Source of the DNA: Gammaproteobacteria bacterium
Lineage (GTDB): Bacteria > Pseudomonadota > Gammaproteobacteria > 21-64-14
NCBI GenBank assembly: GCA_027013145.1
Contig: JALUXX010000011.1
Span: forward strand, 124,001 to 188,000
Length of the DNA: 64,000 nt
Direction: 5' to 3'
Shown: piece after piece, positions 41,531 through 43,148 of the stretch
Numbering within the stretch: position 1 is the stretch's first letter
Layout: the number at the start of each line of letters is the position of its first letter
Notes under the pieces: generated by a model
What the model was told of the DNA's origin: nothing
The model's database searches: none
The model's input: the letters and a program-made list of their open reading frames with translations, nothing else
Translations under genes and position numbers: made by a program

Positions 41531-41604
41531 TGGCTGGGGGACTAGGATTCGAACCTAGGTTGACGGAGTCAGAGTCCGCTGTCCTACCACTAGACGATCC
41601 CCCA
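41531..41604 (-). tRNA. tRNA-Gln (anticodon CUG), CCA encoded
   Basis: Reverse complement TGGGGGATCGTCTAGTGGTAGGACAGCGGACTCTGACTCCGTCAACCTAGGTTCGAATCCTAGTCCCCCAGCCA; T-loop GGTTCGAATCC, loop CTCTGAC, G73. Confidence 0.96.
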
Positions 41605-41648: not shown

Positions 41649-42041
41649 TCAGCGCTTGGAGTACTGCGGCGCCTTGCGGGCCTTGTGGCGCCCGACCTTC
41701 TTGCGTTCCACTTCGCGCGCGTCGCGCGTCAGGAATCCGGACTTGCGCAACGGTCCGCGCAGGGATTCGTCGTACGCGACCAGCGCGCGCGCCAGGGCGT
41801 GGCGGATCGCGCCGGCCTGTCCGGTGCCGCCGCCGCCGCGCACGCGCGCGTGGACGTCGAACCGGGCCGCGAGATCGGCCGTGTCGAGCGGCTGGCGCAC
41901 GACCATGCGCGCGGTCTCGCGCCCGAAATACTGCTCCAGCGGGCGCCGGTTGACGAGGATCCGGCCGCTGCCGGGGGTGAGGTACACGCGCGCGGTGGCG
42001 GTCTTGCGCCGTCCGGTGTTGTATGCGGCCTGTTGCGCCAT
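41649..42041 (-). CDS. rpsI: 30S ribosomal protein S9
   Basis: [36 protein letters not shown] ... [24 protein letters not shown] ... [25 protein letters not shown]. Confidence 0.98.
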
Positions 42042-42092: not shown

Positions 42093-42521
42093 TTACAGTT
42101 CAAGTGCCTGCGGCTGCTGCGCGGCGTGACGATGGTCGGGGCCGGGATAGACCTTGAGCTTGCGGATCATCGCCCGCCCGAGACGGTTCTTCGGCAACAT
42201 CCCACGCACGGCGTGCTCGATGGCGCGCTCGGGCGCCTTGTCCAGCAGCTTGCCGAGCGTGATGGACTTGAGGTTGCCGATATAACCGGTATGGTGGTGG
42301 TAGACCTTATCGGTGCGCTTCTTGCCCGTCGCATGGATCTTCGCGGCGTTGATCACCACGATATAGTCCCCGGTGTCCACGTGCGGGGTATACTCGGGCT
42401 TGTGCTTGCCGCGCAGGCGCCGGGCGACCTCCGAGGCGAGCCGGCCGAGGGTCTTGCCGGCGGCATCGACCACGTACCAGTCGCGGACCACGCTCTCGGG
42501 CTTCGCTGTGAACGTCTTCAT
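42093..42521 (-). CDS. rplM: 50S ribosomal protein L13
   Basis: [68 protein letters not shown]. Confidence 0.98.
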
Positions 42522-42578: not shown

Positions 42579-42607
42579 ATGGTACAAAATCGTCCGGCCG
42601 CTTACAA
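42579..42607 (-). promoter_or_regulatory. Putative sigma-70 promoter of rplM-rpsI
   Basis: Minus strand TTGTAA - 17 bp - TACCAT, downstream of the 42645-42676 terminator. Confidence 0.5.
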
Positions 42608-42644: not shown

Positions 42645-42676
42645 AAAAAAATGGCGCGGCATGTGGGGGCCGCGCC
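42645..42676 (-). terminator. Rho-independent terminator between ferredoxin gene and rplM
   Basis: Minus strand GGCGCGGC-CCCCACAT-GCCGCGCC-ATTTTTTT. Confidence 0.85.
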
Positions 42677-42745
42677 GAATACCACCAAAGGAGGATGGAG
42701 GAGTCGCATGAGTCCGGATTGCGGGATCCGGAATCAGCGTATGAG
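42645..42745 (-). ncRNA. Candidate small RNA / 3'UTR RNA with anti-Shine-Dalgarno motifs
   Basis: 5' hairpin TCCGGAT-CCCGCA-ATCCGGA, linker ACTCCTCCATCCTCCTTTGG, terminator hairpin; TTGACA at 42770-42775; 5' end not determined. Confidence 0.4.
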
Positions 42746-42839
42746 AATCTTCTAATATTTTGGTGGACGTGTCAACCTCCAGGGCCGGCCCTGGCCCGCG
42801 CCCGGGCACGATCACAAAACAGTCTTGTAAAACAGCTTG

Positions 42840-43148
42840 TTAAATGCGTAGACGGTCGACCACCCGGCCGTGGACCAGGTGCTCGTCGATGATCTCGTCG
42901 ATGTCGTGGGCATCGACGTAGGTGTACCAGACGCCTTCCGGATAGACGACCAGGACCGGACCCTCCTCGCAGCGGTCCATGCAGCCCGCGCGGTTGATGC
43001 GCACGCCGCCCGGGCCGCTCAGGCCGAGCGCCTTCACGCGCGCCTTGGCGTGCTCGCGCATCGCGGCCGCATCGTGGTTCGCGCAGCAGGTGGCCCCCGG
43101 TTCCCGCTGGTTGGTGCAGAAAAAGACGTGATGACGATAGTACGGCAT
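42840..43148 (-). CDS. (2Fe-2S) thioredoxin-like ferredoxin
   Basis: HHVFFCTNQREPGATCCANHDA ... INRAGCMDRCEEGPVLVVYPEGVWYTYVDAHDIDEIIDEHLVHG. Confidence 0.92.
   Translation of the reverse strand: MPYYRHHVFFCTNQREPGATCCANHDAAAMREHAKARVKALGLSGPGGVRINRAGCMDRCEEGPVLVVYPEGVWYTYVDAHDIDEIIDEHLVHGRVVDRLRI

Follow-up and report, generated by a model that had tools for sequence, protein, structure and literature searches.

Alphaproteobacterial small RNAs (sRNAs) such as NfeR1/alpha-r14 have CUCCUCC anti-Shine-Dalgarno loops, and the so-called toxic RNAs were reportedly named by Kimelman in 2012. Growth is slowed by NcS27, one of the Burkholderia double-hairpin RNAs, a group whose predicted targets are concentrated at ribosome-binding sites (PMC5688073); transport and metabolic genes are affected by NcS27 (PMC10987360). 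The Bordetella S17 gene adjoins coq7, and BP2158 is directly repressed by S17 (PMC11722255). Neisseria NmsRA and NmsRB repress genes of the tricarboxylic acid cycle at the Shine-Dalgarno site via two anti-Shine-Dalgarno motifs (PMC5362039), and the gonococcal siblings bind Hfq and repress at ribosome-binding sites (PMC9973317). Finally, Xanthomonas sX13 uses C-rich loops to repress mRNAs that have G-rich motifs close to where translation begins (PMC3771888).

Here we describe a locus on the minus strand of a 64-kb window, the whole stretch of gammaproteobacterial DNA that was analysed. We consider it highly likely that this locus encodes a trans-acting sRNA of ~97 nt that is orthologous to RF02278, represses at ribosome-binding sites, and has a dedicated sigma-70-type promoter as well as an intrinsic terminator. 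It is very probably a real sRNA gene that is unannotated, widespread and ordinary in mechanism.

Layout of the candidate sRNA gene

Read along the minus strand from 42775 to 42645, the locus presents in order TTGACA, a 17-nt spacer, GAAGAT, a 5′ hairpin, CUCCUCC, a small hairpin with a C/U loop, and a terminator (Table 1). The first-pass annotation had given the sequence, strand and coordinates of the element correctly, and its strong terminator with a 7-T run was recovered by prediction. The two linker motifs it had pointed out, CUCCUCC and AUCCUCCUUU, are present and start at 42703 and 42696, the latter being unique within the window. Other details needed revision. The 5′ hairpin exists, but its stem is longer than the 7 bp first described, extending to CGCUGAU...AUGCG in the fold. 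The linker had been described as apparently unpaired and instead holds a small conserved hairpin, SL2; because CUCCUCC runs into SL2, motif 2 is largely a hairpin loop. A 16-bp palindrome upstream (42779-42794) had also seemed worthy of attention. It was rejected as an operator, being near chance level in a GC-rich window (8 such palindromes against 3.25 expected from shuffles) and missing from the only congeneric genome.

Table 1. Coordinates of the sRNA locus and neighbouring features in the 64-kb window
Feature	Position	Strand	Basis or remark
-35 box TTGACA	42770-42775	-	read from sequence
-10 box GAAGAT	42747-42752	-	17-nt spacer; ATATTA just before; block consensus ATATTAGAaAAT from an anchored alignment of 49 loci, picked partly for the ATATTAGAaAAT-type promoter pattern
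Predicted sRNA, ~96-98 nt	42645-42740	-	~42740-42742 taken as the start by reference to the -10 box; 3′ end set by the T run
SL1, 5′ stem-loop CGCTGATTCCGGAT-CCCGCA-ATCCGGACTCATGCG	42705-42739	-	fold prediction and homologue hairpins
Anti-Shine-Dalgarno motif 1, CUCCUCC	42697-42703	-	nearly invariant among homologues
SL2, CCAuCC-UCCUUU-GGUGG; loop side is anti-Shine-Dalgarno motif 2, UCCUCCUUU	42682-42698	-	homologue pairing
SL3, intrinsic terminator stem-loop	42653-42676	-	terminator prediction and covariation; followed by T7 at 42645-42651
Separate promoter of rplM, TTGTAA-17 nt-TACCAT	42579-42607	-	downstream of the sRNA terminator; homologous loci
2Fe-2S ferredoxin-like gene	42840-43148	-	upstream of the sRNA; ORF and homologues
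rplM (ribosomal protein L13)	42093-42521	-	ORF and homologues
rpsI	41649-42041		after rplM; ORF
tRNA-Gln (CTG)	41531-41604	-	downstream of rpsI
coq7	~45.4-46.0 kb		identified from its sequence

The predicted fold of the RNA has a free energy of -41.3 kcal/mol (z = -5.25), and none of 200 shuffles was equally stable. In the ensemble of the window RNA the motif 2 loop is mostly unpaired (0.86), and CUCCUCC is half paired in the predicted fold (mean unpaired 0.50). Mean unpaired values over 108 homologues were 0.77 for the loop motif, 0.47 for CUCCUCC and 0.47 for the whole RNA. Unlike many Hfq-dependent RNAs, this one has no AU-rich single-stranded stretch before the terminator.

Distribution of the sRNA core

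Ferredoxin loci of public genomes and rplM upstream regions contained the same element in distant Gammaproteobacteria, with a core, ACTCCTCCATCCTCCTTTGGTGGT, that is nearly unchanged among relatives, and 5′ hairpin and terminator sequences that diverge. A covariance model built on the sRNA core, which we call R1, was run against a 369-genome sample of the class and at E<=1e-3 found matches in 143, the weaker tail of these being uncertain because of cross-matches to PrrF. At E<=1e-6, counted from the best E-value per genome, 120 of the 369 genomes from about 65 families were matched. Named carriers are Alkalilimnicola ehrlichii and metagenome-assembled genomes of Thiohalomonas denitrificans, Sulfuricaulis, Sulfuriflexus and Acidiferrobacteraceae, and in a phylum-wide sample all convincing R1 matches fell in the same class.

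The specificity of R1 is supported by a search of 361 kb of other ferredoxin loci, which returned no match at E<=0.1. Two apparent homologues in large genomes (L246 and L248) proved to be PrrF and were rejected, so R1 matches weaker than ~1e-5 were not trusted. PrrF, an iron-responsive RNA, lies at L246:3001-3148 and L248:2909-3058 and scores weakly with R1 because its 3′ part has TCTCCTCATC and a similar terminator end. Two candidates outside the class (L235 and L236) were discarded as weak and unlike the family. The source genome has one copy of the sRNA; a putative second copy (L085, 26.5 bits) lies in the terminator region of a porin-like gene and was judged a chance match.

The betaproteobacterial ferredoxin loci examined held no sRNA copy. 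Eight gammaproteobacterial loci (L004, L006, L007, L009, L010, L012, L022 and L058) lack the sRNA between the ferredoxin gene and rplM; in the same place they have an insert of ~1.8 kb with an apparent ABC-transporter permease gene. Elsewhere the sRNA occurs in two or three tandem copies (L185:3001-3278, L192:1131-1337, L191:3001-3188 and L245:3001-3441), an arrangement that recalls the sibling RNAs of Neisseria. Three further loci (L072:3557-3624, L181:2811-2878 and L189:2761-2829) have a diverged second copy upstream of the main one, at 31 bits, in which ATTCCTCCACGAAT...GTGG replaces the C/U loop; this copy is a paralogue with an altered loop.

Covariation and promoter conservation

Standard pairs fill 97.8% of cells in the 108 aligned matches and two-sided changes occur in 9 of 13 pairs, counts that lean towards the model because the alignments were fitted to its structure. 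The observed covariation was reached by none of 500 shuffles and was lost when the partners were slid; an alignment with beta members included gave a similar outcome. Compensatory changes had been proposed as a check on the hairpins, and all 8 pairs of the terminator helix show them on both sides. Covariation is strong in this helix and weak in SL2, where about 94-99% of cells are paired across homologues and two-sided changes are few (1 pair in the first set, 2 pairs with beta members compared), partly because the letters of SL2, most of which show little variation, belong to the conserved motif. The anti-Shine-Dalgarno letters themselves stay nearly fixed across homologues. The 5′ hairpin persists despite sequence change, with a hairpin of dissimilar sequence present in all 46 promoter-anchored homologues (mean z -4.0).

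The promoter is conserved as well. TTGACA is where the first-pass annotation had placed it, and GAAGAT is indeed weak alone, yet its position is conserved in relatives. A promoter with at least 10 of 12 matches was found within 110 nt upstream of the core in 56% of 107 homologues, compared to 1.7% of shuffled copies, and the conserved block ATATTAGAaAAT reaches past a plain -10 box. Just before the -10 box, ATATTA (42753-42758 of the window) is conserved in many homologues beyond plain promoter needs; it may extend the promoter or serve as a site for a regulator. Comparison across relatives supports the original proposal of an sRNA that carries anti-Shine-Dalgarno motifs and has both a promoter and a terminator of its own.

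Genomic neighbours and alternative readings

Neighbours were counted over 108 matches from two locus collections, in which some loci may be one genome. A same-strand rplM lies downstream of the element in 80 of them and a ferredoxin gene upstream in 68, and coq7 is found within about 3 kb in about half of the gamma loci. None of the four marker genes is nearby in 19 of the 108, for part of which short contigs account.

The frequent position ahead of rplM is what one would expect if the element were a transcription attenuator or an rplM leader, for example one that responds to L13, and not a free sRNA; in other bacteria, expression of the L13 operon is known to be controlled by L13 itself. Such a leader would always lie within the rplM transcript, whereas copies occur with none of the four neighbours, several loci have tandem copies, and rplM has a promoter of its own between the sRNA terminator and the gene. 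This separate promoter had been noticed at the outset, and of 76 homologous regions upstream of rplM, 52 have a similar one. The distance from the element to rplM varies from ~90 to ~690 nt and is 1.4 kb once, the gammaproteobacterial ferredoxin-rplM loci L039, L057 and L070 are without the element, and RF02278 members that adjoin coq7 are free sRNAs in the literature (PMC11722255). We regard an attenuator or leader as very improbable.

Another possibility is that the element belongs to the ferredoxin mRNA as its 3′ untranslated region, with an sRNA arising by processing at best: the ferredoxin gene, on the same strand, stops ~98 nt before the element, and terminator prediction showed no other in the gap. 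We think this improbable too, given the strong conserved promoter immediately before the RNA and the loci that keep the RNA with no ferredoxin gene found nearby (L103, L107, L109, L195 and others). Both alternatives are weakened by the occurrence of the element without rplM or ferredoxin nearby and by the separate promoter of rplM. By analogy with Bordetella, where the short form of S17 arises by processing (PMC11722255), the ferredoxin mRNA and the dedicated promoter of the sRNA might both supply the same RNA.

A small protein encoded on the plus strand from ATG 42708, with an incidental structure on the minus strand, has practically no likelihood. The reading frame is real, and the congeneric genome retains it as MIPDCGVQNQRMSIF, but the ATG is there in only 15 of 102 homologues, peptides outside the genus are unrelated, and the polarity of the terminator, the polarity of the promoter and the covariation all point to the minus strand. 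Conservation confined to the plus-strand frame, which would have spoken against an sRNA, was therefore not what we found, and the mini-ORF was rejected as a gene. A sense ORF inside the RNA was likewise discarded (17 of 102 homologues, not conserved).

Relation to RF02278

An Rfam scan at curated thresholds reported no family for the element. Its best Rfam match by far was RF02278, over the full length of the model (1-64), at 42.4 bits (E=1.7e-7) and thus under the gathering score of 50 bits; the match takes in both hairpins, CUCCUCC and the C/U-rich loop. Across the 369 genomes the RF02278 model matched 77 at E<=1e-4, among the matches listed mostly at R1 positions. Its gathering score was passed by only 2 of the 369 genomes, compared to the 120 detected by R1 at E<=1e-6, so that nearly all carriers are missed at the curated score of Rfam.

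The two groups are connected by intermediates and by synteny. One bridging sequence, L237, scored 63.2 bits with R1 and 65.6 bits with RF02278. In one family, two genomes have an RF02278-type copy ~275-300 nt ahead of rplM-rpsI (L238, which exceeds the gathering score, and L244, placed by model match and synteny); in a second family such copies are ~600-750 nt away from coq7 (L221, L226 and L240-L243). Since RF02278 copies lie near rplM or coq7 and many gamma loci near both, the gamma RNAs are, judging from sequence and gene order, probably orthologues of RF02278 that fall outside the formal boundary drawn by Rfam.

The likeness to RF02278 might instead reflect convergence of unrelated sRNAs with C/U-rich anti-Shine-Dalgarno loops, since C-rich loops have evolved repeatedly (Xanthomonas sX13) and R1 also picks up PrrF, an unrelated RNA, with E-values of about 4e-5 to 6e-4. 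Convergence would leave the strong matches of L237 to both models unaccounted for and would make the common neighbours rplM and coq7 a coincidence, and it strikes us as unlikely.

Discussion

Gene anatomy, conservation, covariation, family relationship and synteny are established for the element. Judging from its relatives, it probably represses at ribosome-binding sites with help from Hfq, on metabolic and transport targets. In the mechanism we propose, the 5′ hairpin would probably shield the RNA end, while CUCCUCC and the UCCUCCUUU loop would mimic the anti-Shine-Dalgarno tail of 16S rRNA and pair with a set of mRNAs at their ribosome-binding sites. Pairing would block 30S loading and so repress these mRNAs, probably with Hfq; hfq is encoded in the source genome. 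Target prediction by Shine-Dalgarno complementarity alone is unspecific, and metabolic and transport mRNAs are named as likely targets by analogy with the studied relatives. Pairing of the linker and SL2 with an ideal Shine-Dalgarno sequence was calculated at -12.0 kcal/mol, compared to -18 to -19.5 kcal/mol for the 16S tail. Because it is the weaker of the two, regulation of selected mRNAs fits better than wholesale competition for ribosomes. The 16S 3′ end was sought in the source genome by pattern and not found, being either absent from the assembly or poorly captured by the pattern.

What had been studied as an oddity of Betaproteobacteria now looks like a single branch of an RNA present in about a third of the sampled genomes of the class, and this is informative on how old the "toxic small RNA" family is. 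A bolder reading is that one ancestral sRNA predates the split of Beta- and Gammaproteobacteria, was kept next to rplM-rpsI, and acts as a general brake on translation initiation through mimicry of the 16S tail, so that ribosome production would be linked to growth arrest in much of the class; we consider this speculative and rather doubtful. The frequent position beside rplM offers a simple handle for locating the sRNA, and the proposed mechanism can be tested in cultured hosts, Alkalilimnicola ehrlichii among them.

Among known systems, NfeR1/alpha-r14 likewise carries a CUCCUCC motif in a small RNA but belongs to a different class, Alphaproteobacteria, and no match to it was detected. Xanthomonas sX13 has three stem-loops, as the element does, together with its known C-rich loops; its loops, however, are C4/C5 and not CCUCC, it is reported to be Hfq-independent, and it was not among the Rfam matches listed for the element. 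The architecture of Neisseria NmsRA/NmsRB (NgncR_162/163, RF02877) comes closer, with three stem-loops, anti-Shine-Dalgarno motif 1 between SL1 and SL2, and motif 2 in the SL2 loop (PMC5362039). Fold and comparison gave the same order here: SL1, motif 1, SL2 with motif 2, and terminator. Unlike NmsR, however, the element scores 20.3 bits (E=0.5) with RF02877, whose cut-off is 52 bits, and an RF02877 search found no match in 338 genomes of the class or in controls, though such a search does not show absence. Compared to RF02278, the element has a shorter, bulged SL2, a score under the 50-bit cut-off, and a separate 5′ hairpin and conserved dedicated promoter near the core; it is found in Gammaproteobacteria, as a single copy in the source genome, whereas RF02278 is betaproteobacterial. 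With the members of RF02278, namely the Burkholderia "double-hairpin RNAs" NcS27, ncS03, ncS05 and ncS62 and Bordetella S17, it shares CUCCUCC, the C/U-loop hairpin, the terminator hairpin, and positions upstream of rplM or near coq7.
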